A DNA stretch of 64,000 nucleotides from Paludibacteraceae bacterium (GTDB lineage: Bacteria > Bacteroidota > Bacteroidia > Bacteroidales > Paludibacteraceae), in assembly GCA_017478725.1 (NCBI GenBank), contig JAFVDD010000004.1, positions 1 through 64,000 of the forward strand, read 5' to 3'. Within the stretch, counting starts at the first letter, position 1. The number at the start of each line of letters is the position of its first letter. Position numbers and translations under genes: made by a program. Below are positions 3,730-28,989 of the stretch, one piece after another. A model generated the notes under the pieces. That model did not search any database, was not told the origin of the DNA, and was given only the letters and a program-made list of their open reading frames with translations.

Positions 3730-4479
3730 CTATCTGATCATCCTGATACTTAGTTCGTAGAGCAGGTATAACGGAAGGGTGACGAGCATGAGCGTGAACG
3801 CATCGCCTGTAGGTGTAATGACGGCGGCGATAATCATGAGTGCCACCAAAGCATGTTTACGGTATTGTTTCAGCCACTCGGCTTCCAAGATTCCCGCCTT
3901 GCCAAGCGCCCATGCCACTATAGGCATCTCAAATAGCACACCCATGATAAGGGAGAGTATGAGCAGTGTGGATACATATGAATCCAAGGCGATCTGGTTG
4001 ACGACTTCCGGTTGTACCTGGTAGGAAGCCAGAAAACGGAAAGCGAAGGGGAATATGATGAGGTAATTGAGTGCCACGCCTGCTGCAAACAGCAGCGTGC
4101 CAAAGCCGATGATCCGTCTGGCGGCGCGTTTCTCGTTCGGATACAACGCCGGAGCGACAAATCCGTATAACTGCCAAAGCAAGAACGGGCAAGCGACAAT
4201 AAGTCCCGCCACTGCCGCCACCTCCATGTGGGTGGTGAACTGCGCGGCCAGCTGAGTGTTGATGAATTGAGAGTTGAAATTTGAAAGTTGAAAGTTGAAA
4301 GAAGGAAGCTGCTCTAGTAGCCGGTAGGTGATAAAGTCAGGACGAGACGGGGCGAAGATAATGGCAAAGAGCGGTTCGCGCAGGCAGAACATAGCCACCG
4401 CGCACACTAACCACGCTACTACGCAGCGAATCAACACACTGCGCAGTTCGTCCAAATGATCCCAAAAAGAATCAGCCAT
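3730..4479 (-). CDS. tatC: Twin-arginine translocase subunit TatC
   Basis: A 249-residue polytopic inner-membrane protein that recognises twin-arginine signal peptides. The N-terminal SFWDHLDELR matches the conserved cytoplasmic start of TatC; the segment CPFLLWQLYGFVAPALYPNEK is the family signature, and about six hydrophobic segments are present. The first periplasmic loop (about residues 58-76) is encoded by five tandem heptamers (4267-4301) and is rich in Phe, Asn, Ser and Gln; this looks like a repeat insertion into a tolerant loop. It forms an operon with tatA upstream (13 bp) and umuC downstream. Confidence 0.95.
   Translation of the reverse strand: MADSFWDHLDELRSVLIRCVVAWLVCAVAMFCLREPLFAIIFAPSRPDFITYRLLEQLPSFNFQLSNFNSQFINTQLAAQFTTHMEVAAVAGLIVACPFLLWQLYGFVAPALYPNEKRAARRIIGFGTLLFAAGVALNYLIIFPFAFRFLASYQVQPEVVNQIALDSYVSTLLILSLIMGVLFEMPIVAWALGKAGILEAEWLKQYRKHALVALMIIAAVITPTGDAFTLMLVTLPLYLLYELSIRMIR
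4267..4301. repeat. Five in-frame heptamers inside tatC
   Basis: On the plus strand the units read TTGAGAG, TTGAAAT, TTGAAAG, TTGAAAG, TTGAAAG (35 bp). On the coding strand the unit is CTTTCAA, the same word that makes the 35-bp array in the ABC ATPase gene at 31321-31355. Confidence 0.9.
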
Positions 4480-4498
4480 CAGCTATCAGCTATCAGTT
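4471..4498. repeat. Four heptamers across the tatA-tatC junction
   Basis: Units ATCAGCC, ATCAGCT, ATCAGCT, ATCAGTT run without gap. They contain the start codon of tatC (complement of 4477-4479) and the stop codon of tatA (complement of 4493-4495), so the whole intergenic gap is made of repeat. Confidence 0.9.
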
Positions 4499-4672
4499 TT
4501 CCGTTTTTGATTCGTTTTTCTCGTCTTCGTCGGAGTCGATTTCTTTCATGCCGTCCTTGAATGACTTGACGCCTTTGCCCAATCCCTTCATGAGTTCAGG
4601 AATTTTCTTGCCGCCGAAGAGCAGCAGAATAATCAGCGCGATAATAACGATTTCTGTAATACCAATGTGCAT
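4493..4672 (-). CDS. tatA: Sec-independent translocase subunit TatA/E
   Basis: A 59-residue protein. Residues 3-19 form one hydrophobic helix, followed by the FGGKKIPELMKGLGKG hinge and amphipathic helix that define TatA/E, then an acidic and lysine-rich tail. It is the pore-forming partner of TatC for folded proteins. It lies directly upstream of tatC and 12 bp downstream of a gene whose product has a twin-arginine signal, which is the likely reason for the linkage. No tatB is seen; many Bacteroidota use TatA and TatC only. Confidence 0.93.
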   Translation of the reverse strand: MHIGITEIVIIALIILLLFGGKKIPELMKGLGKGVKSFKDGMKEIDSDEDEKNESKTEN

Positions 4673-4684
4673 AATGATTATGAT

Positions 4685-6118
4685 TTATAGTGTTTGTTTT
4701 AGTTTTTCCACAAGACGGTTGATGCGCACCATCTCATGCGGAATGTCTATGTGTTGCGGGCAAAGCCGGATGCAGCGGTCGCACCCGATACAATGGTCAG
4801 CCTGCCGGATGCTTGGCACAGCGCGGTCATATCCTACAAGGAAAGCCCGACGATTGCGTTGGAATTCACTGCCCTTGTCAGCCGAGGAGATTGTTCCAGC
4901 CGCGACAGACTTGTTGTAATGCGCAAAAATAGCCGGAATGTTCAATCCGTACGGGCAGGGCATGCAATAATTGCAGGTAGTGCAAGGAATAGCTTTGAGT
5001 TCAAAGATGTCTTTGGCCAGCCCGAGTATCCATTCTTCCTCGTCCGACGTAAGCGGGACAAGGGGAGAGTATGTGCGGATATTCTCCCGGAGATGTTCCA
5101 TATATGACATCCCACTGAGGACTGAGAGCACTCCGCTTGGCGAACCGGCAAAACGGAAAGCCCATGCCGCAGGTGAGAAACGGCTGTCTTTTTCGCGCAT
5201 GCGGTGTGCGATAGCGTCCGGTTGGTTGGCCAAACGTCCTCCCAACAAAGGCTCCATGACCAGCACCGGAATGCCGCGTTTCTCCAACTCGGCATACAGG
5301 AGTTCCGCATTGGAGTTGCGCTTGTTGATCTCCTTGGCGTGGCGCCAGTCCAGATAATTGAGCTGGATAAGCGCACAATCCCAATGGTAGCGTCCTACGT
5401 CATGCAAGGCGAGAATAGCATTCAGATCCTCGGGGCTGCCATGAAACGAGAAACCGAGATTGCGGATACGTCCTTGGGCTTTTTGCCCGACAAGCCAATC
5501 AAGCAATCCGTTCTCGATATACCGTTTATGAAAAGTCTCCATGACACTCATTCCGCCGCTTCTCATTCCCAAACCATGCATCAGCAGGTAGTCCACGTAA
5601 TCGGTCTGCAATTCTTGAAGCGAGTGTTCGAACATCGCCTTGGACTCGGCGAGAGACCATGTGTCGGACGAGAAATTGGAGAGCTTGGTGGAAATAAAAT
5701 AACTATTCCTCGGGTGGCGTGAAAGGGCTATTCCTGTAGATTGTTCGGACAAGCCCTGACAGTAAACCGGCGATGTGTCAAAGAGGTTAACGCCGTGCTC
5801 CAGCGCGTAGTCCACCATCTCATTGACAGCCTCCTGGTCAATAGGCGAGTCCTGATTGTCGCGTGCGGAGCCGCCTGCTTGTACAGGCAGACGCATCATC
5901 CCAAACCCCAAGAGTGACACTTTGTCACCAGTATTCGGGTTGGTGCGAAGGGTCATGCCATTTGCCGTTAGGTCATTTGCCATTTCTAATCTCCCTGCGG
6001 TCGAACGATCAGCTTCGCCGTATGGGTCATTGGGCTTTCCATTACGGCACGCACTCAGTATTACCGACGTGCCGGCTACGGCAGCTGCGCTATGTTTGAT
6101 AAAATCTCTTCTATCCAT
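4685..6118 (-). CDS. Tat-exported Fe-S aldo/keto reductase (lipoprotein)
   Basis: A 477-residue protein from the ATG at 6118. The start MDRRDFIKHSAAAVAG is a twin-arginine signal and is followed by a SAC lipobox-like site, so it is probably a lipid-anchored protein outside the inner membrane. Then comes an aldo/keto reductase barrel (LGFGMMRLP, about 65-370; FDTSPVYCQG and FHGS are typical) and a C-terminal segment with two cysteine clusters, CTTCNYCMPCP and CIGCDRCIRLCP, fit for two [4Fe-4S] centres. An upstream in-frame ATG at 6148 would add ten residues coded by heptamer repeats in front of the signal; I prefer 6118. It sits between the NapHG-like gene and tatA. Confidence 0.85.
   Translation of the reverse strand: MDRRDFIKHSAAAVAGTSVILSACRNGKPNDPYGEADRSTAGRLEMANDLTANGMTLRTNPNTGDKVSLLGFGMMRLPVQAGGSARDNQDSPIDQEAVNEMVDYALEHGVNLFDTSPVYCQGLSEQSTGIALSRHPRNSYFISTKLSNFSSDTWSLAESKAMFEHSLQELQTDYVDYLLMHGLGMRSGGMSVMETFHKRYIENGLLDWLVGQKAQGRIRNLGFSFHGSPEDLNAILALHDVGRYHWDCALIQLNYLDWRHAKEINKRNSNAELLYAELEKRGIPVLVMEPLLGGRLANQPDAIAHRMREKDSRFSPAAWAFRFAGSPSGVLSVLSGMSYMEHLRENIRTYSPLVPLTSDEEEWILGLAKDIFELKAIPCTTCNYCMPCPYGLNIPAIFAHYNKSVAAGTISSADKGSEFQRNRRAFLVGYDRAVPSIRQADHCIGCDRCIRLCPQHIDIPHEMVRINRLVEKLKQTL
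5959..5987. repeat. Heptamer repeat inside the aldo/keto reductase gene
   Basis: CATTTGC, CGTTAGGT (8), CATTTGC, CATTTCT. The 7-8-7-7 spacing is the same as in the array at 6124-6152. It encodes part of the linker between the lipobox and the barrel domain, a position where an insertion would be tolerated. Confidence 0.8.
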
Positions 6119-6123
6119 AAAGT

Positions 6124-6152
6124 CATTTACGATTTGGTCATTTACCATTTAC
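6124..6152. repeat. Heptamer repeat upstream of the aldo/keto reductase start
   Basis: CATTTAC, GATTTGGT (8), CATTTAC, CATTTAC. It fills the gap between the NapHG-like gene and the preferred start codon at 6118 and supplies the alternative upstream ATG at 6148. Confidence 0.8.
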
Positions 6153-6160
6153 CGTCTCGG

Positions 6161-7639
6161 TCAATTAAGATGGTGCATCTTGTTTCCCTCCACGTAGATA
6201 GCACTGAACGGGCGGGCAGGGCAGAGGTTCTCACATTTACCGCAGCCGACACATTTCTCTGAATCGACTACCGGAACTTCAACCAGCTTGCCGTTCACCT
6301 CTTTCTCAACCATCTGAATGGCCCATGCAGGGCAATGCCGCGCACATGCGCCGCAATGATCGCCGTTGGAGACAGGGATGCAGTTCTGCTCAATCCATAC
6401 GGCGTGACCAATATGGATGGCAGTTTTCTCCTCTTTGGTAATCGGGCGTATAGCGCCTGTGGGACAGACCTGACTGCAGCGCGTACACTCGGGGCGGCAG
6501 TAGCCTCGCTCGAACGACATCACCGGTTGCATCAGATGAAGCGGGTCGGCAGAGGGACGCAGCACATTGTTCGGGCACGCGCTGACACATAGCTGGCAGG
6601 CCGTGCAATGGCGGTTCAAGTTGTAGGCAGAGACAGATCCGGGAGGCGTAACGGGCGTCTCTCGGTGCGGTGCCTGTTTGTCCTCAATCACCGCCAGACC
6701 GCCATCCATTTTGATTCTCGTTTCCGCCATCACGGCAGCGCTTGTAGCCAAGACCGCGCCTGTCAGAAAGGCCCGTTTGTTAAGATCCGGTTCAGCGGGA
6801 TCTTGAGTTGATTTATGCAGATGCAGAACGGGCTTATAATGCAGCGCGTCGAATTTACACTTGTCCAAACAATCGCCGCAAGTGATGCAACGGGCGGCAT
6901 CCACTGTACCGGATTTGTAATCAATAGCAGCGGTCTTGCAGTTTTTCTCGCATAAGGAGCAGTTCTTGCATCGGGACTTATCCATCTGCACGCGCATCAG
7001 CGAGAAGCGGCTGAAGAATGAGAGTATCGTTCCGACAGGGCAGACGGTGTTGCAGTAAGTGCGGCCGTTGCGCCATGCCAGAAAACCAAGAATAATGAAT
7101 GTGAGCAGAGCTATCATGAACGTAGTAACACTACGCATCCACAACTGCACTTCGCTAAAGACATAACTATCGTACCGGCTCTCAAATGCAGCGAGCCCAT
7201 TGTTCAGTAAATCGTATAACGGCCGGAAGACCGAGTTGACGATGCGGCCGTAGGCGGAGTAGGGCGCCAAAAGAGTAGTAACGGGTGCAAAGCCGATGAT
7301 GAGGCAGAGGATAAACACTGCCAGTACAGAATAGCGCAGCCATTTCTTCTCCGGCGAATGGGAATAGCGGTTCTTCTTAGCTTTCTTACCTGCCCAGCCG
7401 AAGATATCCTGCATGATGCCGAGAGGACAGATGACAGAGCAATAAATGCGCCCGAAGAGAAGCGTCACGGCTATGAGAACCAGCAACATAGCGTAATCCA
7501 GCGCTAACAATGCAGGCAGAAACTGAATTTTCGCGACCCAGGCAATGTGCTGACTTATTCCCCAGCTGATGCCAAGGAACAGCATATTGATCAATACAAA
7601 GCAGACAGCAGCGAGCGTTATTCGGATTTTTCTTAACAT
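6161..7639 (-). CDS. NapH-NapG-like membrane polyferredoxin fusion
   Basis: About 492 residues from the ATG at 7639. The N-terminal half resembles NapH: several membrane helices and two cysteine motifs after helices, YCSVICPLG and YCNTVCPVG, then ferredoxin clusters CKNCSLCEKNC and CITCGDCLDKC. A hydrophobic stretch NKRAFLTGAVLATSAAV follows, like a degraded twin-arginine signal with KR for RR. The C-terminal half carries four clusters in NapG order: CTACQLCVSACP, CRPECTRCSQVCP, CGACARHCP and CVGCGKCENLCP. NapH and NapG pass quinol electrons to the periplasm, so this fusion should do the same. No nitrate reductase is in the window. An in-frame upstream ATG at 7672 would add residues coded by a GTACGAT repeat. 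Confidence 0.82.
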   Translation of the reverse strand: MLRKIRITLAAVCFVLINMLFLGISWGISQHIAWVAKIQFLPALLALDYAMLLVLIAVTLLFGRIYCSVICPLGIMQDIFGWAGKKAKKNRYSHSPEKKWLRYSVLAVFILCLIIGFAPVTTLLAPYSAYGRIVNSVFRPLYDLLNNGLAAFESRYDSYVFSEVQLWMRSVTTFMIALLTFIILGFLAWRNGRTYCNTVCPVGTILSFFSRFSLMRVQMDKSRCKNCSLCEKNCKTAAIDYKSGTVDAARCITCGDCLDKCKFDALHYKPVLHLHKSTQDPAEPDLNKRAFLTGAVLATSAAVMAETRIKMDGGLAVIEDKQAPHRETPVTPPGSVSAYNLNRHCTACQLCVSACPNNVLRPSADPLHLMQPVMSFERGYCRPECTRCSQVCPTGAIRPITKEEKTAIHIGHAVWIEQNCIPVSNGDHCGACARHCPAWAIQMVEKEVNGKLVEVPVVDSEKCVGCGKCENLCPARPFSAIYVEGNKMHHLN

Positions 7640-7661
7640 AAGAAGATGTACGATGTACGAT

Positions 7662-9050
7662 TTACAGGGCACGCAGGATAGCTACACATTCTTCAGCCGT
7701 TTGTGCCTCATTGAGCCGGCTGTCGATAGGGCATTGCCCCGATCGGTCGCGGTTGAGAATCTGCGGCACTTCCTCCTCTGCGTAAACAGGTATTCCCGCC
7801 TGCTCCAGCAGCAGGCGTGCAGGTGTGCAGATAAGGTTGGTATAGACGGCTTTGACACCTCCGCTGATTATGAGTGCAGCAGCGGCTTTTCCGATCATTT
7901 TGTCTGCCACCACGGCTCCTTTGAGGCGTTCGGGCTGATTTTCCAGTAAGTCAAGCAAATCGTTTACGCCGCGATTCTCATGCTGCGTAGTTAGTCCCTG
8001 ATTGCGCACCAGCAGGCTTAGACCGTTCGCATTGAGATGCGCCAGCATATCCTCACCGTCAATGCTGACGATTTTGTATGCACGGCTTCCCAAGCCTATT
8101 TGGGCTGCATGCTCAATCGTGTGTATGCCGTGACGCGAATTGATTCGCTCTATCAGTGCAGCTGCATCGTCCCCTTTCACGGACGGATAATTGAAAACCA
8201 AGTCCACACATGCCTGGTCCAACGCTACCGGATCCAGCGAGGCAAGAATACCGATGTCATTCATTTCCGGCGCAGCCGGATGGCTGTCGCAGTCGCAATC
8301 CACCGAGAGATTGTTCACCACGTTGATATAGAGAATCCGTTCACCGTGTCCGAAATAGTTGTGCACGGCTTGTGCAGCCGCCGCCATCGATTCGAGGAAA
8401 CCATCCTGGTTGCCGGTATGGAACCATGTTTTGACTACATCCTCGGTGATACCTGCCGAATGGATATACGCTTTGCCAGCCGCAGATGCTACGCCGATAC
8501 TCTGGTTCTTGAGCACTCCGCCAAATCCTCCCATCGCATGGCCTTTGAAATGGGCAAGGTTGATCATGAAATCGTAGTTCTTAAGATGCGTGCCCACACG
8601 GTCGTATTTAATCCACGTAGTATCCTCAACAGGGATGCTGAAATCGCCCTCTTCGTCCATGAGGTCAACGGGCGCTATATCCAGGAATCCGTGGTCACGG
8701 ATTGTTTGCCAGTGCGCCTCCGTGGTGTTGCGTTTTCCCCGATAAGCAGTGTTGCACTCTACAATCGTGCCGTTCACGTTGTTCACTAAAAGGCGGATCA
8801 GTTCGGGCTTGAGATAGTTGTGTCCGCCGGCTTCACCCGTGGAGATTTTCACCGCCACGCGTCCGGTAGCCGGTCTGCCGAGTGATTCGTAGATCCGAAC
8901 AAGGGCAGCAGGGGATATCTCCTGTGTCATGTAAACTATGGCGGTGTCGGATGAGATAACAGCTTGGCTGTCAGTCCGGCGGTTCGCTTGTCCGGCAGTG
9001 CAACTGACCAGCGCCATGAACGAGAAAAGAATCAAAGGTAGTTTTTTCAT
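7662..9050 (-). CDS. DUF362-DUF1893 fusion lipoprotein
   Basis: A 462-residue protein. The start has a lipoprotein signal with lipobox LVSC (Cys about residue 17). Residues about 35-325 match DUF362, with the conserved segment GHAMGGFGGVLKNQSIGVA and the later DPVALDQACVD. Residues about 325-460 match DUF1893: LLVRNQG, GAVVADKMIGKAAAALII, GGVKAVYTN and a NRD...CPID ending. Both families are uncharacterised, but DUF362 genes often occur beside ferredoxins. It lies directly upstream of the NapHG-like gene (22 bp) and should act on the outer face of a membrane. The fusion itself is unusual as far as I know. Confidence 0.82.
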   Translation of the reverse strand: MKKLPLILFSFMALVSCTAGQANRRTDSQAVISSDTAIVYMTQEISPAALVRIYESLGRPATGRVAVKISTGEAGGHNYLKPELIRLLVNNVNGTIVECNTAYRGKRNTTEAHWQTIRDHGFLDIAPVDLMDEEGDFSIPVEDTTWIKYDRVGTHLKNYDFMINLAHFKGHAMGGFGGVLKNQSIGVASAAGKAYIHSAGITEDVVKTWFHTGNQDGFLESMAAAAQAVHNYFGHGERILYINVVNNLSVDCDCDSHPAAPEMNDIGILASLDPVALDQACVDLVFNYPSVKGDDAAALIERINSRHGIHTIEHAAQIGLGSRAYKIVSIDGEDMLAHLNANGLSLLVRNQGLTTQHENRGVNDLLDLLENQPERLKGAVVADKMIGKAAAALIISGGVKAVYTNLICTPARLLLEQAGIPVYAEEEVPQILNRDRSGQCPIDSRLNEAQTAEECVAILRAL

Positions 9051-9093
9051 CAGTTATTATGTTGTGAAATTTAACTTTTTGTTGTTTTCGGGC

Positions 9094-9230
9094 ATACCAT
9101 CGTCATACTATCGTCATACTTGACCGTCGGCTGACCGTCGGCTGACCGTCGGGAATCACCCGACTCGGAACGGATTCGGAACGGATTCGGAACGGGGCCT
9201 GAATGGGTTCCGAATGGGTTCAGAATGTGA
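9094..9230. repeat. Undecamer array between TonB receptor and DUF362 genes
   Basis: Twelve successive 11-bp registers in changing unit families: ATACYATCGTC, TCGGCTGACCG, TCGGAACGGAT, TYCGAATGGGT. The register is kept except for a 5-bp shift at the hairpin GTCGGG-AATCA-CCCGAC (9148-9164). The last unit (9220-9230) contains the stop codon and final codons of the TonB receptor gene. No promoter-like sequence was seen in it. Confidence 0.88.
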
Positions 9231-11163
9231 ATTGGATGCCGGCCATGACGGTTGTTTTGGGCATCGGGAAGCCTGCGTTGATTTCATATTCCGTTCCCAG
9301 GAGGTTGTCGGCGGTCAGGGTGGCCCACAAGTTGCGCCAGATGCGTCCGGCGGCGTGTGCATTCCACAGAACGAAGTTCTGCTTTGTGCCGGGATCCGTG
9401 GTGACGGTATTGCCTGCGGAGGTGGTGACGGGAGAGCCCGTAGCGGTTGTTACGACGGAGGGCAATTGGGTATAGAGGCCGTGGATGTATTGGACGGAGG
9501 TGCCGATGCGGAAACGATCGTGGTGGTACGTAGCGGAGACATTCAGTTTGTGCTCAGGCGCTGCGAGGATGGGGTTAGCCATATAGAGGTAGCTGTAGTT
9601 GGCTGCCAGAACGAGGCCTTGCCAAACGCGAGCGGAGATCTCCGCTTCCACTCCGGCATTCCTGAGTTCGCCGGTGTTCACGTTGCGCGGTCTGCCGTCA
9701 ACCGGGCGTGTTTCAATCATGTTCTTCGCGTGCAGATAGAACACGTTCGCTCCCAGCCGCACTCTGCCGTCCCAGAGGTATTGCTTGTATGAGAGTTCGT
9801 AGTTCCAGAGATTGACCGCCTGCAGGCTGTCGTTTTGCGGCGGGTACATGTATAGTTCGCGAATCGTCGGATTGCGGAAACCGCGGCTGACGATGGCTTT
9901 GAGCTGTGCGTCATGCGGCAGGATAAACGAGAGTCCCGCCTGCGGCGCATAGTAGAATCCCGCCTGCGAGTGCCAGCCCAGCCGCACTCCTGCATCCAGC
10001 GAGAACCACTCCACCACCTGCTGGCGGAAATCAATATAGCCTGCCAGTTCGTAGAGCGTTTTGTTGACCACCTCATTGTTGGTGTTATTTGCCAGCACAC
10101 GGTTCCACACATGACCTCCAAAATGCTGGTAATCAAAGCCGAAAGTGGTGTGGTTGCCCCGGAACATGCGGACCGTCTGATAGGCACTCACGCCAAGCAT
10201 CAGATCGGTGTGGTTGTACTCGGTAGCAGGTGCTGGTTCGCCGGCTTTGTGGCCGTCGTTGATGCGGTGGCGGCCTCCGGAATAATAGGCCCGGACGGCA
10301 CCTTCGGTTCGTTCGTAGCGGTTTTCGGCGGAGAGTGTAGCCATTCCGCGCAGGACATGCTGACTGCTCTCCAAAACAGGCTCAGTCACCGTGCCCGGGT
10401 TAGCGGTATTGAAATAGGCGATGTTGCCCGAGGCATTGAGCGACCAGTGGTTGTCTATGTCGTAGCCCACACGCGCGAAACCGCTGTATTGGCTGAATGC
10501 GGTGTTGGGGCGGTGACCCGATGTGCGGACATAGTTGAATCCCACTGCCTCGGTCCATTTGCCGCGGCGGAGTTGATTCGTGATGCCTGCATCCACCGAG
10601 TAGTGCGAACCTCCCTGCGCATGAATACGCGTGAGGATAGTGTCCTTTTTAGGCTGGTGGGTGACGATGTTGATCACGCCTCCCAAGGCGTTGGAGCCGT
10701 AATAGAGCGACGCGGGTCCGCGGATAACCTCGACGCGTTCCGCCATCGAAGTCTGGTAGTTGTCGGCTATCGGGTGGCCGTAGAGACCGGCGTACTGCGG
10801 CAGTCCGTCAATCAGCACCAGCACGTCGGTGTTGGGCTGGCCGCCTATTCCGCGCACTTTGATACCTCCGGAGCCACCGGTACTCACGCCGTAACCGATA
10901 ACACCGCGCTGGGTGATAAACAATCCCGGCACTTGCTCCGTCAGGGTAGGGAGGATGTTCGGTTCGGAACGCTCTGTGAGCGTAGCCTGATCCACCACGT
11001 TAACAGTAACCGGCAGCAGGCGTGCATCTGCGGCAGCACGCGTGCCCGTTGCTACCACTTCCTGCAAATCGATGGTTCGCAAACTGTCCTGCGCCTCGGC
11101 TCCGGCACTCCACATACTCAGGCTGCATAACGCCGCCATGCTTGTTAAAAAGAACTTTCTCAT
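9220..11163 (-). CDS. TonB-dependent outer-membrane receptor
   Basis: A 647-residue receptor with a signal peptide ending near AEAQ, a TonB-box-like segment (DLQEVVATGTR), a plug domain (about 45-155, with IRGPASLYYGSNALGGVINIVT at its end) and a 22-strand type barrel ending in QFTF, the usual terminal aromatic residue. There is no N-terminal carboxypeptidase-like domain and no SusD partner, so it resembles siderophore, haem or vitamin receptors more than SusC. The substrate cannot be read. It is the first gene of the run that continues into DUF362, NapHG and the aldo/keto reductase. Its leader of about 100 nt contains an undecamer array. Confidence 0.92.
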   Translation of the reverse strand: MRKFFLTSMAALCSLSMWSAGAEAQDSLRTIDLQEVVATGTRAAADARLLPVTVNVVDQATLTERSEPNILPTLTEQVPGLFITQRGVIGYGVSTGGSGGIKVRGIGGQPNTDVLVLIDGLPQYAGLYGHPIADNYQTSMAERVEVIRGPASLYYGSNALGGVINIVTHQPKKDTILTRIHAQGGSHYSVDAGITNQLRRGKWTEAVGFNYVRTSGHRPNTAFSQYSGFARVGYDIDNHWSLNASGNIAYFNTANPGTVTEPVLESSQHVLRGMATLSAENRYERTEGAVRAYYSGGRHRINDGHKAGEPAPATEYNHTDLMLGVSAYQTVRMFRGNHTTFGFDYQHFGGHVWNRVLANNTNNEVVNKTLYELAGYIDFRQQVVEWFSLDAGVRLGWHSQAGFYYAPQAGLSFILPHDAQLKAIVSRGFRNPTIRELYMYPPQNDSLQAVNLWNYELSYKQYLWDGRVRLGANVFYLHAKNMIETRPVDGRPRNVNTGELRNAGVEAEISARVWQGLVLAANYSYLYMANPILAAPEHKLNVSATYHHDRFRIGTSVQYIHGLYTQLPSVVTTATGSPVTTSAGNTVTTDPGTKQNFVLWNAHAAGRIWRNLWATLTADNLLGTEYEINAGFPMPKTTVMAGIQFTF

Positions 11164-11181
11164 AATGTCGTATTTTTCGGG

Positions 11182-11235
11182 TCGGGGTTTTATCGGACTT
11201 GCATCGGAGGCAAATCGGGTTAAGTCGGGGGTGAC
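11182..11235. repeat. Undecamer array in the TonB receptor leader
   Basis: TCGG recurs at 11182, 11193, 11204, 11215 and 11225 (steps 11, 11, 11, 10). On the minus strand the units begin with CCGA, for example CCGATTTGCCT and CCGATGCAAGT. One unit is shared with the array at 53630-53684. It lies between the predicted transcription start (near 11267) and the start codon, so it would be transcribed. Confidence 0.85.
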
Positions 11236-11273
11236 AAAATGGCAAAATGTTCAATCTTCCCGAAATGCGCATA

Positions 11274-11304
11274 CAAAGATACAACTTTTTTTGCATATAT
11301 CAAA
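11274..11304 (-). promoter_or_regulatory. Promoter of the TonB receptor gene
   Basis: The minus strand has TTTG at 11304-11301, a 19-bp spacer and a TATCTTTG -7 box (11281-11274). Its -33 box is part of the near-palindrome TTGCATATATCAA (11291-11303), which it shares with the divergent promoter of the EFR1 gene. Confidence 0.8.
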
Positions 11305-11321
11305 ATTTATTTGTAATTTTG
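11290..11321 (+). promoter_or_regulatory. Promoter of the EFR1 ferredoxin gene
   Basis: TTTG at 11290-11293, a 20-bp spacer and TAATTTTG at 11314-11321. Transcription should start near 11328, leaving a leader of only about 14 nt. Confidence 0.8.
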
Positions 11322-11341
11322 TACCGCAAAACAGATGAATT

Positions 11342-12097: not shown

Positions 12098-12115
12098 GAA
12101 CCGTCATGCGAAGAG

Positions 12116-13837: not shown

Positions 13838-13859
13838 TTATTTATTTTACACTTGCAAT

Positions 13860-13899
13860 AAAAAATGGTATAAACCCTCGGTGGGTCTATACCATTTTC
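13860..13899 (-). terminator. Strong intrinsic hairpin before Na/Pi copy 1
   Basis: Arms AAAATGGTATA-A-ACCC and GGGT-C-TATACCATTTT pair over about 15 bp with one mismatch around the loop TCGGT. On the minus strand the hairpin is followed by a T-rich stretch (TTTTTTATTG). It starts right after the stop codon of the small ORF and ends about 20 bp before the Na/Pi copy 1 start, so it is either a terminator or an attenuator. Confidence 0.8.
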
Positions 13900-13900
13900 C

Positions 13901-15967: not shown

Positions 15968-16012
15968 ATAGATTGTTTGTTATTTACAAGAATCGGTTGT
16001 AAAAATATGGCG

Positions 16013-16044: not shown

Positions 16045-16079
16045 TATAAACGCAATTTTGTCGGTATAAAATATATTTA

Positions 16080-18055: not shown

Positions 18056-18068
18056 TGCAAACTACGCA

Positions 18069-19013: not shown

Positions 19014-19044
19014 GGTGATTACGATTTAAAGAGTTATGAATTAA

Positions 19045-20694: not shown

Positions 20695-20733
20695 AATTGT
20701 GAATGTTTCGTCCCTATTATTCCAATTTCGCTG

Positions 20734-20764
20734 CAAAGGTACTATTTTTTTTCGACATATGCAA
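20734..20764 (-). promoter_or_regulatory. Promoter of acyl-CoA ligase A
   Basis: TTGCATATGTCG (complement, ending at 20753) with a 20-bp spacer to TACCTTTG (20741-20734). It settles the start codon at 20694. Confidence 0.85.
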
Positions 20765-20775
20765 GTAAAAAGCAT

Positions 20776-20811
20776 AAAAAAACAAAGGCCGGCCTCACGG
20801 TCGCACCTTTG
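20776..20811 (-). terminator. Putative terminator after acyl-CoA ligase B
   Basis: On the minus strand CAAAGG ... CCTTTG arms (811-806 and 788-783 of the 20,000 block) enclose a GC-rich interior with CC/GG pairs and are followed by seven T. It lies 37 bp after the stop codon of the gene at 20848-22497. Confidence 0.6.
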
Positions 20812-20847
20812 CTTTGGTCCCAGAAGGGGCCCAATCTACTTACTCAC

Positions 20848-22497: not shown

Positions 22498-22561
22498 GAA
22501 AAATGATGTGCGTTTTTAGATTTACGATGCTTGAAATAATGGTTGTGACCGAAATCCAATG

Positions 22562-22597
22562 CAAAGGTACTATTTTATTTTCGAACTATCGTTCAAA
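22562..22597 (-). promoter_or_regulatory. Promoter with TetR-type operator for ligase B
   Basis: A TACCTTTG -7 box (complement of 22562-22569) is preceded by an inverted repeat GAAC-GATA-GTTC (22583-22594) that occupies the place of the usual -33 region; a TTTG lies further off at 22594-22597 (24-bp spacer). The deviation from the standard 20-bp spacer and the palindrome suit a repressed promoter. The tetR gene ends 14 bp away from the operator. Confidence 0.65.
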
Positions 22598-22607
22598 ATA
22601 TACACAA

Positions 22608-23201
22608 TTATTCATTTTTAAGCAAATTGTAAAAGGAAAGGTATGATTTCTCCAGCAAAGTGAAATCCATTTGTGTTTGTCCGAGTCCGCTGTCGTAGCT
22701 GTTTTTGATGTGTGCGCACATGAGTGCAATCATATCCACGTCTATTCCGAAACGGATAATTCCTGCCCGCTGGTCGTTGTGGATGGCTTTGCGCCACAGT
22801 TCCACTTCCTTGAGCGCCAGACGTTGGGCTTTGCGGTGCAGGGCGGGAAAACGGCTATAGGCGGTAAACATCAGGTTATTCACATTGCTGGTGTTGATAC
22901 GTTTGTCTTCAAAGGTCATGAGCGCTTCTTCCAGGCTGTGGAGGTAACTCATCATTGCTTCTATCATTTGTTCGAATGTCACATTGTCTTTGACGGAACA
23001 GAGTGCACGCTGTTTAGGCTCAAGAAAATAGGTCTCCATACAGTTCAGGAATAGCTCGTCCTGATCCTTGAAATAATAATAGAGCGTGCCGCGTCCCATG
23101 TCAAGTGCATTCTGCAGGTCGGTGATACTGACGTTCTGATAGCCTTCCAAAGCATAGAGCTCCATCGCCTTCTGGATAATATATTGTCTTCTATCTTTCA
23201 T
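22608..23201 (-). CDS. TetR-family transcriptional regulator
   Basis: A 197-residue protein with an N-terminal helix-turn-helix (about 10-50): the segment SITDLQNALDMGRGTLYYYFKD is the TetR signature. The C-terminal ligand domain is not recognisable. It is the last gene of the pepT-gcvT-patatin-tetR run and sits directly upstream of acyl-CoA ligase B, whose promoter holds a palindrome. By analogy with FadR-type TetR proteins an acyl-CoA ligand is plausible, but this is inference from context. Confidence 0.9.
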   Translation of the reverse strand: MKDRRQYIIQKAMELYALEGYQNVSITDLQNALDMGRGTLYYYFKDQDELFLNCMETYFLEPKQRALCSVKDNVTFEQMIEAMMSYLHSLEEALMTFEDKRINTSNVNNLMFTAYSRFPALHRKAQRLALKEVELWRKAIHNDQRAGIIRFGIDVDMIALMCAHIKNSYDSGLGQTQMDFTLLEKSYLSFYNLLKNE

Positions 23202-23233
23202 TTAGCACTCCTTGCGCTGACGTTGCGCACCCT

Positions 23234-24169
23234 TTACGCGTGCGCACGCTCGTAATCTATTAAGGCGTTCGTCATTATTCGTTTGCCGTCGGCAATGATT
23301 TCTTCCGCTTTGTCGAAATCAAACGTGTTATATGCGTATTGCCGCATAACGGCGTGTATGTCCGGCGGTGTCAGACGGCATCCCATGATGGTGTTTTGCT
23401 GGATCTGGATATCATTCATGCGGTCCAGCATGGATGCGAAACTCACCTTACGCGTCAGGTCAGAAGCCCGTTCGATACGCACTTTGTCGATTCGTCTGCT
23501 GAGTTGGCGTAATTGGGTCTCCACACTCTTGGGAACAGGCCATCCTTTGTCGCGCCATTCGCCCAAACGGCTTTCCACGTCAATTGATTCGGGCATGGGG
23601 TCAGTAGGCATACTGTCCTTGCCGCTGATGTCCATAGCGACTAACAGGTCTCCCGGGCGGCGTTGTACCAGATTGAGCGGCAGGGGATTGATGATACCTC
23701 CGTCCACCAGCAGGCGTTCGCCATGCTGGACAGGCTGGAAGAACAGGGGGATACTGATAGAAGCCCGTACGGCCTCAAACAGACTGCCGCGTTCGAAAAC
23801 CACTTCCTCGGTGTTGATAAGGTCGGTAGCAACAATCGTACATGGTATATTGAGTTGCTCGATAGGGCGGTCGGGGACTACTTTCTCCAGTTCCTGAATG
23901 ATACGTTCGCCTTTGACAAGCGAGTTGCCGCTGAATAAGTTGATATCCATCATCCTGAGTATCAATTGTTTGTCCACCTGCAGAAACCACTCTTTGGCTT
24001 CTTTCAGTTGGCCGGCAGCGTACATTCCGGCGATGATACTTCCCATCGAGCAGCCGGCTATACCCGTGATGGTATAGCCGCGTTCTTCCAGCGCTTCGAT
24101 GGCACCAATATGCGCCAAGCCTCTCGCTCCGCCGGAACCGAGGACTAATGCTACCCGTTTATTGGTCAT
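23234..24169 (-). CDS. Patatin-like phospholipase
   Basis: A 311-residue protein of the bacterial patatin/RssA type. The N-terminus has the oxyanion loop GSGGARGLAHIG and the nucleophile elbow GCSMGS (Ser about residue 41); the second catalytic residue is in the DGGIINPLP motif (about 154). No signal peptide is seen, so it should act on membrane lipids from the cytoplasm and release fatty acids. The neighbouring tetR and acyl-CoA ligases fit a lipid-recycling role. Its start codon lies in a heptamer array, 13 bp after the gcvT stop. Confidence 0.9.
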   Translation of the reverse strand: MTNKRVALVLGSGGARGLAHIGAIEALEERGYTITGIAGCSMGSIIAGMYAAGQLKEAKEWFLQVDKQLILRMMDINLFSGNSLVKGERIIQELEKVVPDRPIEQLNIPCTIVATDLINTEEVVFERGSLFEAVRASISIPLFFQPVQHGERLLVDGGIINPLPLNLVQRRPGDLLVAMDISGKDSMPTDPMPESIDVESRLGEWRDKGWPVPKSVETQLRQLSRRIDKVRIERASDLTRKVSFASMLDRMNDIQIQQNTIMGCRLTPPDIHAVMRQYAYNTFDFDKAEEIIADGKRIMTNALIDYERAHA

Positions 24170-24188
24170 TGGTTATTGGTTATTAGAC
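24161..24188. repeat. Four heptamers across the gcvT-patatin junction
   Basis: ATTGGTC, ATTGGTT, ATTGGTT, ATTAGAC, 28 bp without gaps. The array contains the start codon of the patatin gene (complement of 24167-24169) and the stop codon of gcvT (complement of 24183-24185), the same layout as at tatA-tatC and tcdA-murF. Confidence 0.88.
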
Positions 24189-25268
24189 AATCTTGGCAGG
24201 AACGAGTTTTTCGCGGATGCGGATGTAGATAAGGTCTCCTTTCTTGGCAAACCCGGTCTTCACATAGCCCATGCCGATGCCCACCTTGGTGTTCGGCAGC
24301 ATGATACCTGAAGTCACGTTGCCGATGGTGTTGCCGGCCTCGTCGCAAATCTCATATCCGTTACGCGGAATGGCGCGTTCCTGGCATTCGAAATGTACGA
24401 GTTTGCGCTTTACGCCTTCGGCTTTCTGTTGCTTGAGGAAATCGCGGTCGATGAAATCCTTGGCGTCGAGTTTGGTAATCCAGCCCAGTCCGGCCTCCAG
24501 CGGCGAAGTAGTGTCATCAATGTCATGACCGTAGAGACAGTACCATTTTTCCAGACGCAGGCTGTCGCGTGCGCCGAGACCGATAGGTGCCAGTCCGAAC
24601 GGTTTGCCTACCTCAAAGAGTGCATCCCATATCTGTTTGCCCTTCTCGGCAGGGAAATAGAGTTCGAAGCCGCCTGCTCCGGTATAACCTGTGTTGCTCA
24701 ATATAACTCCCGGTACGCCTGCAAAACTCCACTCGCGGAAAGCGTAGTAGTCAATGGACTTGAGGTCTGCATCGGTCAGCAGTTGTAGCAATTCGGTTGC
24801 TTTAGGACCCTGTACAGCCAACTGACCGTAACGCTCGCTGGCATTCTCAAGAGACACTTCGGCAAACTCGGGTTTGGTTGCCTTGACCTCATTGACCCAT
24901 GCCCAGTCTTTGTCAATATTACCGGCATTGACTACCATGAGATACTTTGTGGTGGAATACTTGTAGATAATCAAGTCATCCACAATACCTCCGCGGCCAT
25001 TGGGCATACAGGTGTACTGTGCCTTGCCGGCGGCGATAGTGGAGAGGTCGTTGGTAGTGATGTACTGCAAGAAATCCAGCGCCTTTTCACCTTTAACCCA
25101 GAACTCGCCCATGTGGCTTACATCGAATACGCCTACGCCCTCGCGTACAATCATATGTTCCTGATTGATGCCGGTAGGATACTGGATAGGCATATTAAAT
25201 CCGGCAAACTCTGCCATCTTTGCACCCAACGCAATGTGGATGTCTGTAAACGGTGTTGTCTTTAACAT
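24183..25268 (-). CDS. gcvT: Glycine cleavage system T protein (aminomethyltransferase)
   Basis: A 361-residue enzyme that releases ammonia from the aminomethyl-lipoyl group on GcvH and transfers the methylene to tetrahydrofolate. The N-terminus ([20 protein letters not shown]), the [11 protein letters not shown] motif with the key Asp, and [17 protein letters not shown] are typical, and the length is normal. The gcvH and gcvP genes are not in the window. It lies 12 bp after pepT and 13 bp before the patatin gene, so it belongs to a mixed operon. Confidence 0.96.
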
Positions 25269-25280
25269 AGTATGAAGAAA

Positions 25281-26495
25281 TTATTTTGCTCTTTTGATGA
25301 TTTCAAGTATTACCTCGCAGGCTTTTTTGAGAGAGGGGATGGGGAGGTACTCATAGCGGCTGTGGAAGTTCTCGCCGCCGGCGAAGATGTTAGGGCAGGG
25401 GAGCCCTTCGAAAGAAAGCCGTGCGCCGTCTGTGCCACCACGGATGGGTTTGACTTTAGGCGTGACGCCTACAGCCGCTATTGCCTCTTTGGCAAGATCG
25501 ATGATGTGCATTACCGGCTCGATCTTCTCGCGCATGTTATAGTATTGGTCGCGGATTTCAATCTCTGCCGTCCCTTCGCCGTATTCGGTATTGATCTTAC
25601 GTACCAGATGCTCCAACTCGCGTTTGCGGTACTCGAACAGGGTGCGGTCGTGATCGCGGATGATATAACTGAGCGTGGTTTCTTCCACCGTTCCGTTCAT
25701 GCCGATGAGGTGGTAGAATCCCTCATAATCCTGTGTGTGCTCAGGTGTCTGGAAGCGCGGCAGCATGACGGCTATCTGATAGGCAATCCGCATTGAGTTG
25801 CGCATCTTGTGGTATGCCGTTCCCGGATGGACGTTTATGCCGTGGACGTGTATCTTCGCCGCGGCGGCATTGAAGTTCTCAAACTCCAACTCGCCTATTG
25901 TACCGCCATCCATGGTGTAGGCCCAGTCGCAGCCAAACGCCTTGACGTCAAAATGGTCGGCTCCCTGGCCTATCTCCTCGTCGGGCGTGAAGCCTACGCG
26001 CACTTTGCCATGCTTGATCTCGGGGTGTTGAACCATATACTCCATGGCCGTCACTATCTCGGCGATGCCGGCTTTGTCGTCTGCGCCAAGCAGTGTCTTG
26101 CCGTTCGTTACGATGATATCTTGGCCTGTATAGTTGAGTATCTCCGGATACTTGGCGGTTTCAAGTACGATATTCTCCGCCTCGTTGAGCACGATATCAT
26201 TGCCGTCGTAGGCTTTGACGATACGTGGACGTACATTCTTTCCACTGGCGTCAGGGGCAGTGTCCATATGGGCGATAAAGCCAACAACAGGTTTGCCTTC
26301 GCAATTCGCCTCCAGCGTTGCCATGATATAGCCGTTGGAATCGAGGGAGACATCGGTCAATCCGACTTGTTTCAACTCGTTCGCCAGATATTCGGCAAAC
26401 TCCATCTGGCCCGGTGTAGAGGGCGTCATGTTGGTCTCTTCGTCACTGGTCGTACAGAACGACACATATTTTAAAAAGCGATCTACGATATTCAT
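25281..26495 (-). CDS. pepT: Peptidase T (tripeptide aminopeptidase)
   Basis: A 404-residue M20-family zinc peptidase that removes the N-terminal residue of tripeptides in the cytoplasm. Visible are [14 protein letters not shown] with the first metal His/Asp, [11 protein letters not shown] with the bridging Asp, [15 protein letters not shown] with the catalytic Glu, and [12 protein letters not shown] near the C-terminus. Its length equals that of the Escherichia coli enzyme within a few residues. It starts the pepT-gcvT-patatin-tetR run. Confidence 0.96.
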
Positions 26496-26527
26496 AATTC
26501 AGACTTTATTATAATACCAATACGTGC

Positions 26528-27073
26528 TTATTTGCCTCCGAAAGCACCCAATAATGCGCTCAGTGCTCCTGCATATTGCGCAGCGGTGCCGGCGTATCCA
26601 GAGGCGGTGGTAGCGGTGTTTTGTACTTGTGTAGCAGCGTTTTGTACGGTCTCGCTATTCTTCACCATATCCACCAGACTGGAGGTTACGGTCTCCACAT
26701 TGTCCTGAGTAACGAGGCCCAATGATGAAACTATCATACCTTTTCCAAATTCTTTCAGGTATGTTTTGTCTTTGTAATTGTCTTTCAAACCCTCGCAATT
26801 GGCAATCAGCGTAACGGTATTCAGCGCGTTTTGCATGTTTTTGTAGTCGTATTTGTTTCCGTCCGCTTTGTACTGGTTGTATAGCGCAAGCAACGCATTA
26901 CCTGCTCCCTGTCCGGCACTCATGGCGGCATTGCTGCTCTGTGTCGTGGTGGTCGTTGTTGCTGCCGGCTGGCTGCCGGCTGTTGACTGTTGGGTGTTGC
27001 TTGTACTGTTTTTCATCAATCCGCAACCTGCTATAATCATAGCGGTTGCTGTTAAGAGTATTGTTTTTTTCAT
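26528..27073 (-). CDS. Lipoprotein of unknown function
   Basis: A 181-residue product. A lipoprotein signal with lipobox IAGC (Cys about residue 17) is followed by a Ser/Thr/Gln-rich linker (about 20-55) that includes a run of six Thr, then a helical domain (about 60-150) and a low-complexity Ala/Gly tail. I do not recognise the family. It starts 12 bp after the stop of the hydroxyacid dehydrogenase and ends 32 bp before pepT, so it may be part of one long transcript. Confidence 0.75.
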   Translation of the reverse strand: MKKTILLTATAMIIAGCGLMKNSTSNTQQSTAGSQPAATTTTTTQSSNAAMSAGQGAGNALLALYNQYKADGNKYDYKNMQNALNTVTLIANCEGLKDNYKDKTYLKEFGKGMIVSSLGLVTQDNVETVTSSLVDMVKNSETVQNAATQVQNTATTASGYAGTAAQYAGALSALLGAFGGK

Positions 27074-27085
27074 TGGGTTATATGT

Positions 27086-28018
27086 TTAAATTACTATATT
27101 CATTTTGTCAGTTTCGTTTTGTGCAAAGGCGAGTATGTTGTCCGTCACATTCTCGCACATGGTGATACGTCCTTCCCATGTGCCGGTTCCGGTATGGGGC
27201 GAGAGCACTACATTCTCCAGCGCAAGCAGTTCCGGGGACACCGCAGGCTCATGCTCATAGACATCCAGCGCCGCTCCTGCGATGATGCCGTTTCTTAGTG
27301 CTTCCACCAGTGCAGCCTCGTCCACGTGCGCGCCTCGCGCGGTATTGATAAGGAATGCACTGCGTTTCATCATTCCCAGTTCCGGTTTGCCAATCAGGTG
27401 GTGCACGTCGGGCGTGTAAGGCAGGTTGAGTGATACATAATCGCTATCCTGCAGCAAGGTCTGGAAATCGGTATAGACAGCCTGATACCTCTCTTCTGTC
27501 TCAACGGGCAGGCGGTGCCTGTTGTAATAGATGATACGCATCCCGCAGGCCACAGCCCGTCGTGCAAGTGATTGCCCGATACGTCCCATGCCGATAATAC
27601 CCAGTGTTTTGCCATAGAGCGAATGGCTGAGGTTGCGCATGACGCCGAAAACGGCTTGTCCTGCCCGGATAGTTCTGTCGAATTCGGATACGCGCCGTGC
27701 TATGTCTATCATGAGCGCGAACGCCAATTCGGCAGTCGGTTCGATCACCGGCTGCGGGGTATTGGTGACGCGTATGCCGCGCTCGCGGCAGGTATCCAAG
27801 TCAATGTTATTGAACCCCGCTCCGAAATTGGCTATCAATCTCAGCCCCGGCATCGACTCAATCATCTCACGCGGCACGCGGTAGTCAAACGTACTAACCA
27901 ATATCTCCGCTTCGGGACAATCCACAATTTGACCCTCTGCGGGCATCACCATCGTGTAGTTCCCGCCTAACCGGCGAAAGCCCTCTATCGGTAGCGGAGT
28001 AGTGAAAGCAATAACCAT
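27086..28018 (-). CDS. D-isomer specific 2-hydroxyacid dehydrogenase
   Basis: A 310-residue NAD-dependent enzyme from the ATG at 28018. The Rossmann motif GIIGMGRIGQSLARRA lies at about 150-165; the catalytic Arg is in NTARGAHVDEAAL and the His in LSPHTGTGTWEGR. It reduces a 2-keto acid or works in reverse; candidates are glyoxylate, hydroxypyruvate or phenylpyruvate. A longer in-frame reading exists up to 28147 but would run through the promoter at 28060-28091, so it was shortened. It heads a minus-strand run that may include the lipoprotein and pepT. Confidence 0.9.
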   Translation of the reverse strand: MVIAFTTPLPIEGFRRLGGNYTMVMPAEGQIVDCPEAEILVSTFDYRVPREMIESMPGLRLIANFGAGFNNIDLDTCRERGIRVTNTPQPVIEPTAELAFALMIDIARRVSEFDRTIRAGQAVFGVMRNLSHSLYGKTLGIIGMGRIGQSLARRAVACGMRIIYYNRHRLPVETEERYQAVYTDFQTLLQDSDYVSLNLPYTPDVHHLIGKPELGMMKRSAFLINTARGAHVDEAALVEALRNGIIAGAALDVYEHEPAVSPELLALENVVLSPHTGTGTWEGRITMCENVTDNILAFAQNETDKMNIVI

Positions 28019-28059
28019 ATATCTGTTCGAATGGTAGTTCAAAAAAACCTTTGCGAGGG

Positions 28060-28091
28060 CAAAGGTACTGCTTTTTTTTGACATATGCAAA
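28060..28091 (-). promoter_or_regulatory. Promoter of the 2-hydroxyacid dehydrogenase gene
   Basis: TTTGCATATGTC followed by an A-tract, GCAG and TACCTTTG (complement of 28060-28067), spacer 20 bp. Leader about 35 nt. Confidence 0.88.
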
Positions 28092-28138
28092 TTTTCCGCA
28101 AAAATCAGGAGATAAAAAATCAAAAAAAGCATTTTATG

Positions 28139-28170
28139 CTTGCACATGTCGAAAAAAAGCAGTACTTTTG
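28139..28170 (+). promoter_or_regulatory. Promoter of tcdA
   Basis: TTGCACATGTCG (from 28140), an A-tract, GCAG and TACTTTTG at 28163-28170, spacer 20 bp. The transcription start should fall at about 28175-28178, within a few bases of the tcdA ATG at 28180. Confidence 0.85.
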
Positions 28171-28179
28171 TACCCGATT

Positions 28180-28974
28180 ATGGCAAATGGATTTTTTCAG
28201 CGGACAGAACTGCTTGTAGGCGATGAGGCGATGAGGCGGCTGGCGGACACGCGCGTCATCATTTTTGGTGTAGGCGGTGTAGGGAGTTGGTGTGCGGAGA
28301 GCCTTGTCCGCTCAGGCATCGGCCATCTGACGATTGTGGACAGTGATCGTGTGTGCGTGACTAATGTCAACCGCCAATTGATGGCCACCAGTCGTACAGT
28401 AGGAATGGTGAAAGTGGATGCCTTGTGTACACGGCTGAAGGAGATCAACCCGCACGCAGATATCGAAGTAAGGCAGGAAATCTATTCTGCCGAGACCGCC
28501 GAGAGTTTTCATATAGAGAGTTACGATTACGTGATAGATGCTATCGACAGCCTGCAGAACAAAGCCGACCTGATTTTGCAGGCCACGAGCATGAAAGTGA
28601 AGTTCTTCAGTTCGATGGGCGCAGCGCTGAAGATGGATCCTACGCGCATTCACGTAGCGGAGTTCTGGAAAGTGACTGGCTGTCCGCTGGCGGCCGCACT
28701 GCGCAACAAATTCAAGCGTAACAAACTGTTCCCCAAACGCAAGTTCAAATGTGTCTATAGCGACGAGTTGTTGAAAAATCAGGGTGTCAATCGCTCATGT
28801 GGCACGGAGAGATGCCTGTGTCCCAAGGCACAAAACGGTCCCGGCAAAGCCGAACTGGTCACCCACGAGTGGTGTTCGTCAAAAGCGCAGATCAACGGCA
28901 CTATGGCGCATATCACCGCCATTTTTGGATTCACATTGGCCGGATTAGTGATTAAAGATATAATTGACAATTGA
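28180..28974 (+). CDS. tcdA: tRNA threonylcarbamoyladenosine dehydratase
   Basis: A 264-residue E1-like (ThiF family) enzyme that uses ATP to cyclise t6A37 in tRNA to ct6A. The nucleotide loop GVGGVGSWCAESLVRSG (about 28-44), NRQLMAT, the DAIDSL motif and the C-terminal CPKAQNGPGK segment fit TcdA. The start MANGFFQRTELLVGDEAM aligns with the family; a longer reading to 28051 would pass through the promoter. The predicted transcript is almost leaderless. The stop codon lies in a heptamer array that runs up to the next gene. Confidence 0.93.
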   Translation: MANGFFQRTELLVGDEAMRRLADTRVIIFGVGGVGSWCAESLVRSGIGHLTIVDSDRVCVTNVNRQLMATSRTVGMVKVDALCTRLKEINPHADIEVRQEIYSAETAESFHIESYDYVIDAIDSLQNKADLILQATSMKVKFFSSMGAALKMDPTRIHVAEFWKVTGCPLAAALRNKFKRNKLFPKRKFKCVYSDELLKNQGVNRSCGTERCLCPKAQNGPGKAELVTHEWCSSKAQINGTMAHITAIFGFTLAGLVIKDIIDN

Positions 28975-28989
28975 TAATTGATAATTGAC
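28962..28989. repeat. Four heptamers across the tcdA-murF/alr junction
   Basis: AATTGAC, AATTGAT, AATTGAT, AATTGAC. The second unit contains the tcdA stop codon (28972-28974) and the array ends 2 bp before the ATG of the next gene at 28992. Confidence 0.9.

Follow-up and report, generated by a model that had tools for sequence, protein, structure and literature searches.

Period-7 tandem arrays at operon junctions of a Paludibacteraceae bacterium and their turnover among congeneric species

Heptamer repeats have turned up here and there among bacteria, without a consensus on how they originate or spread. The closest described system consists of TAACTGA direct repeats in marine Beggiatoaceae, cyanobacteria, and five Bacteroidetes; in the passages of this source considered here, some of the heptamers overlap upstream stop codons and lie in forward orientation to the downstream gene, and two Cyanothece strains show small differences that are mostly insertions or deletions (indels) in 7-nt increments (MacGregor 2015, PMC4679880). 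Related cases, taken from excerpts of a further source, are the GGGAATC heptamers of Xanthomonas and the GGGGA(C/T)T heptamers of Nostoc (Rehm et al. 2015, PMC4692102) as well as three tandem heptanucleotides in Calothrix (PMC4692102). Among long simple sequence repeats of 5-11 nt, heptanucleotides are the most abundant class in most genomes and multiples of three are favoured in coding regions (Mrazek et al. 2007, as cited in parts of PMC4679880 and PMC4692102); slippage was proposed to be tied to the contact size of the polymerase, for which 7 nt may be the contact stretch (Mrazek et al. 2007, via PMC4679880). Here, we analyse period-7 arrays at operon junctions in a 64,000-bp stretch of contig JAFVDD010000004.1 from a Paludibacteraceae bacterium (assembly GCA_017478725.1; hereafter the window, to which position numbers refer unless another locus is named), in a larger sample of the same genome, and in its congeners. 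The genus consists of uncultured Bacteroidales, and its numerous species, which are separated by graded distances, allow one and the same junction to be compared from a stop/start overlap to long arrays.

The three junction arrays of a preliminary description of the window are present where it had placed them. Between the minus-strand genes tatA (4493..4672, start as called by our script; NCBIfam TIGR01411, above cut-off) and tatC (3730..4479; TIGR00945, above cut-off), an array at 4471..4498 reads ATCAGCC ATCAGCT ATCAGCT ATCAGTT, with a weak extension to 4507 by the detector. Read on the gene strand, it consists of CTGATAG-type units, the first of which holds the TGA of tatA (4493-4495) and the last the ATG of tatC (4477-4479). 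The second array (24161..24188, minus strand; ATTGGTC ATTGGTT ATTGGTT ATTAGAC) separates gcvT (24183..25268; NF001567 and TIGR00528, both above cut-off) from a patatin-like phospholipase gene (23234..24169; NF007623, 153 bits, below the cut-off of 272) and likewise encloses both the upstream stop (24183-24185) and the downstream start (24167-24169). The third, on the plus strand (28962..28991, with four units at 28962-28989; AATTGAC AATTGAT AATTGAT AATTGAC), begins 13 bases within a tcdA-like gene (28180..28974, longest open reading frame from 28051; NF011696, 162.5 bits, below the cut-off of 304), carries the tcdA stop (28972-28974) in its second unit, and ends directly before the start of a bifunctional murF/alr gene (28992..30887; NF008897, above cut-off), which thus lies outside. 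The upstream stop is accordingly inside all three arrays and the downstream start inside the first two, as had been described. The 28 bp that had been taken for the whole gap include coding bases and are therefore not the gap, the real stop-to-start distances being 13, 13, and 17 bp, respectively. Four heptamers each, as originally reported, are found at tatA-tatC and tcdA-murF/alr; in the gcvT-patatin array, three units are good, and the fourth, the one with the gcvT stop (ATTAGAC), matches ATTGGTT at 4/7 bases. Gene identities rest on NCBIfam models with scores set against the model cut-offs, and gene calls on a simple codon-usage script rather than a standard caller, start codons being least certain.

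That such arrays are no product of chance, as had been argued, is borne out by the window itself, which contains 11 lag-7 runs of at least 10 matches and 7 at lag 11; five first-order Markov shuffles averaged 0. In a sample of the same genome (1,107,768 bp in 61 records; 834 genes called by the script, 84.6 % coding), the peaks among tandem periods up to 13 were 7, 11, and 8, which stand out sharply from the neighbouring lengths: 3 arrays were counted for period 4, 5 for period 5, 13 for period 6, 102 for period 7, 37 for period 8, 21 for period 9, 5 for period 10, 63 for period 11, 15 for period 12, and 5 for period 13. Longer periods (14, 16, 21, 22) are also common and partly multiples of shorter ones. 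Period-7 arrays reach 9.2 per 100 kb in this genome and 9.1 in congener loci, compared to 3.8 in 80 loci of named Bacteroidales around tcdA and 0 in Escherichia coli K-12, where four 50-kb stretches (200 kb) yielded no array of period 7, 8, or 11. A copy number of four, which had been taken as a constant, is merely the commonest size (about four units in 39 of the 102 arrays, about two in 7, three in 34, five in 14, and more than five in 8). Array midpoints fell within called genes in 9/13 cases for period 6, 16/21 for period 9, and 12/15 for period 12, as opposed to 36/102 for period 7, 9/37 for period 8, and 4/63 for period 11; period-7 arrays hence prefer non-coding DNA, as expected of a unit that is not a multiple of three. 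The 36 within genes also mean that placement at junctions is not a defining property; 20 of them have a stop in the unit on the antisense strand only.

Placement was assessed for intergenic arrays against 500 random intergenic placements in 60 records (one of the 61, with fewer than two genes, was dropped). Of the 102 period-7 arrays, 61 are intergenic, and 15 of these overlap a stop codon compared to 3.6 expected, with no random draw as high; stop and start are both overlapped by three (0.56 expected, P 0.02). Within a margin of 3 bp, the figures rise to 20 versus 4.5 for stops, 10 versus 4.7 for starts (P 0.018), and 4 versus 0.7 for both (P 0.002). Co-directional gaps below 100 bp contain 16 intergenic period-7 arrays (5.1 expected). 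The other favoured periods behave differently, and a process limited to 7 bp, as first envisaged, does not describe the data: period-8 arrays keep the preference for short gaps (12 versus 2.1) with no excess of stop overlap (1 versus 1.3), whereas period-11 arrays lie elsewhere and avoid gene ends (stop 1 versus 3.95, start 0 versus 4.2), which rules out one placement rule for all periods. Among 246 co-directional gaps of 10-80 bp in this genome, period 7 was found in 34, period 8 in 22, and period 11 in 4, and none had an array of period 4, 5, 6, 9, 10, or 12; the corresponding congener gaps (20 loci, n=62) gave 20 for period 7, 4 for period 8, and 1 for period 12, compared to 0/33 in E. coli K-12 at every period. 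With a looser detector, 39 short gaps of this genome had a period-7 array, covering the stop in 16, the start in 9, and both in 3, while 32 such gaps from 39 congener loci (including both members of the close pair G075/G080) gave 19, 3, and 1, respectively. A full stop-to-start span is thus rare (3/39), and two of the three cases lie inside the window, where the gcvT-patatin array was scored as start-covering without the whole stop.

The most detailed view is provided by the gcvT-patatin junction. A search of 121 genomes of the genus recovered GcvT in 112; 90 loci were fetched, and in 48 of them the patatin anchor is next to gcvT (the 42 without it were left out). In 10 of the 48 species, stop and start overlap without any array, and the distance from stop to anchor is 29; one further locus has a distance of 35. 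In the 37 loci with distances of at least 36, the best self-match lag between 4 and 12 was 7 in 30, 8 in 3, and another value in 4, compared to lag 7 in 5/37 of the same sequences after shuffling. The words comprise GGTGTAA, AGTTTAG, GTCGAAA, AACCAAT, CCAACGA, GGTTATG, AGTTGAT, ATTGATG, and AATTGAT, and a longer period of about 15 is seen in four species. Since the words differ between species, a conserved element at these junctions is ruled out. GGTGTAA arrays occur at distances of 35, 43, 49, 50, 60, and 72, with 43 and 50 the commonest and the array-free overlap at 29, while other words go along with other distances; among the first 30 loci, the distance was 1 modulo 7 in 15, six of which were array-free. 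In the subset scored for clear arrays (distances 33-120, 37 loci), a clear period 7 was present in 28. The stop lies within the array in 16 of these, the array also runs over the end of the last sense codon in 14, the start is covered in 10, and stop and start both in 5; the units often contain the local last codon together with the stop.

On a quick tree built from flanking coding DNA of 47 species (a locus whose gap contains a tRNA gene was left out; 15/44 inner branches are strongly supported), the word states, classed by eye, required 33 changes compared to a shuffled mean of 31.8 and thus carry no phylogenetic signal. GGTGTAA alone accounts for 11 changes in 11 species, at least 9 of them forced by strongly supported branches, and the array-free state for 10 changes, at least 4 of them forced; clustering is confined to AGTTTAG (one pair) and part of GTCGAAA (one pair of three). 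The tree does not show whether overlap or array is ancestral; in the reading used below, the overlap would come first.

Closely related species can furthermore differ by whole units. In the closest pair, G075/G080 (96.5 % identical in gcvT), the gcvT-patatin distance is 43 and 50, respectively, that is, 7 bp apart. At a second junction of this pair, the gaps of 44 and 37 are one ATTGAGA unit apart, and at a third the difference is 16 bp within an 8-bp repeat (29 versus 45); some arrays are, by eye, present in one member and absent in the other. The next pair (91.9 % identical in gcvT) shows no length difference at gcvT-patatin. Across 121,997 aligned columns, the non-coding indels of G075/G080 of at least 3 bp numbered 4 (3 bp), 7 (4 bp), 5 (5 bp), 1 (6 bp), 7 (7 bp), 1 (10 bp), 5 (11 bp), 2 (12 bp), 1 (13 bp), 1 (14 bp), 3 (16 bp), and 2 (18 bp), with eleven longer ones and none of 8 or 9 bp; the 7-bp indels closely copy an adjoining unit in four of the seven cases. 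Within called genes, lengths of 1 and 2 were commonest, and 7 and 8 occurred four times each, which indicates that some called genes or alignments are wrong. The other two junctions of the window vary as well. At tatA-tatC, the same word family with one unit more is found in G098, G075, and G080, and another word in G136, G090, and the second tatC of the genome studied here. A similar array ends the tcdA of G065 (49 % identical), and 7-bp repeats are seen by eye at the same tcdA stop in four named Bacteroidales assemblies (L096, L118, L121, L156), while the nearest tcdA homologue, in G108, has no array at its stop. The non-random placement and the unit turnover between close species are the opposite of what the preliminary description had said would count against it.

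We consider it rather probable that these arrays arise from 7-bp duplications by slippage that are filtered by the reading frame and tolerated at junctions. They would be local tandem duplications of a 7-bp segment, with 8 and 11 bp as other favoured lengths, and would be lengthened or shortened through misaligned copying of the DNA. Loops of this size would be expected to escape mismatch repair. A 7-bp change within a gene shifts the frame and hence survives mostly outside genes, and a close or overlapping stop/start would offer a harmless site: after a tandem duplication across it, the upstream gene still terminates at the first copy and the downstream gene still begins at the last one, and the new gap is made of the array. 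An array that starts inside the 3' end of a gene with a stop in its word must end that gene within three units, so that the stop lies inside the array; tcdA illustrates such a self-made stop, its codons ATT GAC yielding TGA when the copy is shifted by one base. From the comparison of sequences we infer that slippage is the cause, that selection on the reading frame acts as the filter, and that change runs from overlap to array. In this genus it becomes testable whether the copying machinery imposes fixed quanta on the evolution of operon spacing.

Several observations weigh against this reading. The expectation that array ends coincide with gene ends was borne out for stops, as described above, and not for starts, whose overlap by intergenic period-7 arrays is not enriched (5 versus 3.8, P 0.34, n=61). 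Resizing in 7-bp steps, as proposed at the outset, fits the GGTGTAA arrays (43 and 50 versus 29) and the closest pair; many gcvT-patatin distances (46, 49, 53, 54, 56, 57, 58, 60, and more) nevertheless fall off a 29+7n series, the L187/L198 pair (90.6 % gcvT identity) has different words and a length difference of 4 bp, and 9/37 gaps have no clear period 7. In the 39 own and 32 congener gaps, the lengths modulo 7 are distributed across every residue, which speaks against a general 7-bp grid and rules out a genome-wide one. The indel counts of G075/G080 are small, and non-coding indels of 3, 4, and 5 bp are about as many each as those of 7 bp. Lastly, the same words are not simply local: compared to a null from nearby random sequence, same-word pairs number 185 versus 5.1 for period 7, 40 versus 0.15 for period 8, and 32 versus 0.1 for period 11, and the flanks of same-word arrays are mostly unrelated. 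The recurrence of the same words at unlinked loci is a second component beyond what slippage by itself accounts for, and the route by which one word reaches unlinked sites is itself a testable question.

This second component could be taken as the primary one, with a dispersal process copying ready-made tandem words between loci, junctions as mere survival sites, and slippage only trimming the copies. The excess of same-word pairs at periods 7, 8, and 11, their unrelated flanks, and the arrays present in only one member of the close pair would all follow, as would the distribution of a perfect 8-bp pattern, with 6 matches in this genome and 1 each in 2/100 congeners, and a same-word excess within 3 kb (19/70 pairs versus 9.4 for period 7, P 0.005; 4/8 versus 1.1 for period 8, P 0.018). 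The raw count of a pattern search through the phylum was 3/197 other genomes, its reversed-pattern control being invalid as a rotation of the same word. On the other hand, the gcvT-patatin units often hold the local last codon and stop, GGTGTAA recurs independently on the tree, and an 11-bp pattern with 6 matches in this genome is also found in 4/100 congeners, one of them with 4 matches, so that only the 8-bp pattern is nearly private. Period-11 words furthermore show no local clustering (0/14 pairs within 3 kb), and no carrier was found, though no search for one was made. We regard dispersal as the main cause as unlikely. A combination is conceivable, if still rather doubtful, in which some process besides slippage copies 7-, 8-, and 11-bp tandem words between loci with little or no flank, the 7- and 8-bp classes favouring near neighbours; each lineage would thereby gain its own vocabulary, copies would survive at operon junctions, and gene spacing would drift in 7- and 8-bp quanta. 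The mostly unrelated flanks rule out that the arrays belong to a larger mobile element, the exception being about ten bases shared beside one 11-bp word.

Alternatively, the arrays might have a function, such as serving as sites for a translation regulator or the ribosome, with selection keeping them close to starts and stops, as MacGregor suggested for Beggiatoaceae. Their position near gene ends would agree with such a role, as would the orientation of some words in co-directional gaps, counted by eye as sense/antisense: CTGACGG 0/6, AACATAAGCAT 4/0, ACCGTCGGCTG 0/4, TTGAAAG 11/5, and CATGACGA 6/3. A site under selection should hardly, however, be missing from gcvT-patatin in 10/48 species and differ in word and length elsewhere without phylogenetic signal, nor do the period-7 arrays within called genes and the lack of start enrichment fit, and to judge from these sequence comparisons a functional origin appears improbable. 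As for chance similarity or an assembly artefact, the genome is indeed an incomplete draft (60 contigs, 84 % complete), but the lag-7 runs that are absent from shuffles, the like behaviour in many separately assembled congeners, and the array-free 200 kb of E. coli make either explanation barely credible. Slippage under a reading-frame filter remains the reading that we prefer.

Several further features were noted. A period-7 array inside tatC (4267..4301, minus strand; TTGAAAG on the plus strand) encodes part of a loop as the in-frame peptide SFNFQLSNFNSQ; a longer version occurs in G018, and the word TTGAAAG is dispersed across the genus. A fourth array similar to those at the junctions (43437..43479, minus strand) lies between the stop of the gene 43482-44513 and the longest-reading-frame start (43472) of the gene 40566-43472, a start that is uncertain given that the script places it at 43379, and another period-7 array (7645..7665, minus strand) overlaps the stop codon of a neighbouring minus-strand gene. 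Intergenic arrays with 11-bp units are located at 9093-9227, where four different words stand nearly back to back, at 35690-35796, and at 48904-48936, and some 11-bp words hold one orientation relative to genes. A 21-bp tandem array of 3.8 copies (48806-48884) spans the stop codon of the gene 46492-48822. The 8-bp word CATGACGA, which contains the overlapping start/stop ATGA, was listed in 13 arrays (L002, L060, L063, L067, and others), often in short operon gaps of this genome, and is nearly absent from 100 congeners. The genome also carries a second tatA-tatC locus (G000:C57:23500-24426, L047) with about 75 % DNA identity and a different junction word. With up to 73 % identity, Prevotellaceae homologues are nearer to the tcdA gene (28051-28974) than are those of most congeners, many of which lie near 50 %; this suggests horizontal transfer. 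Upstream of tcdA, a motif of about 45 bp that looks like a promoter (AAAAGCAGTACTTTTGC type) occurs in both directions (28045-28100 and 28140-28180) and is repeated at many intergenic sites of this genome and of congeners; we take it to resemble the Bacteroidales promoter consensus. Within the MurF/Alr fusion, the MurF portion seems short, with 631 aa compared to 822 in the model and a MurF match to positions 1-241 of 418 only.

Compared to known systems, the arrays share features with several of them. The STRR heptamers of cyanobacteria, which reportedly comprise several heptanucleotide words in tandem in one genome, are alike in this respect and belong to a different phylum. What is typical of heptanucleotide long simple sequence repeats and of STRR-type repeats is also seen here, namely units beyond chance, a preference for non-coding DNA, and unit-number differences between relatives (G075/G080); a difference is that the passages citing Mrazek et al. 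2007 (in PMC4679880 and PMC4692102) follow no single junction across species. Literature searches revealed neither a Bacteroidales genus with many words plus 8- and 11-bp companions nor a single junction followed across species from overlap to array. Resemblance is closest to the TAACTGA repeats, and the view that no description with such placement existed has to be given up, as heptamers overlapping the stop codon ahead of a downstream gene, forward units with stops in all three frames, reverse units that encode open peptides, and 7-nt strain differences are already in print (MacGregor 2015, PMC4679880, in the parts considered). These repeats are likewise tandem heptamers, mostly intergenic and near starts, with some stop overlap and no common function, and the present arrays similarly overlap upstream stops beside downstream starts (15/61 stops, 3 with both ends). 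The main word is a different one, though: two tandem copies of TAACTGA occur once in the 1.1-Mb sample of this genome and in none of the scanned loci of congeners and named Bacteroidales. According to the available excerpts, the heptamers of Xanthomonas and Nostoc (PMC4692102) are alike in their many intergenic arrays, in the majority of four units (Xanthomonas), and in lengths and sequences that differ between close relatives at the same intergenic places, but consist of one G-rich, quadruplex-capable word, while the words found here are, by eye, without such G runs. In the TAACTGA system, too, one word dominates and related heptamers are rarely repeated (PMC4679880, same passages), whereas the genus described here combines many words per genome with 8- and 11-bp companions and with the replacement of one word by another between species at one and the same junction.

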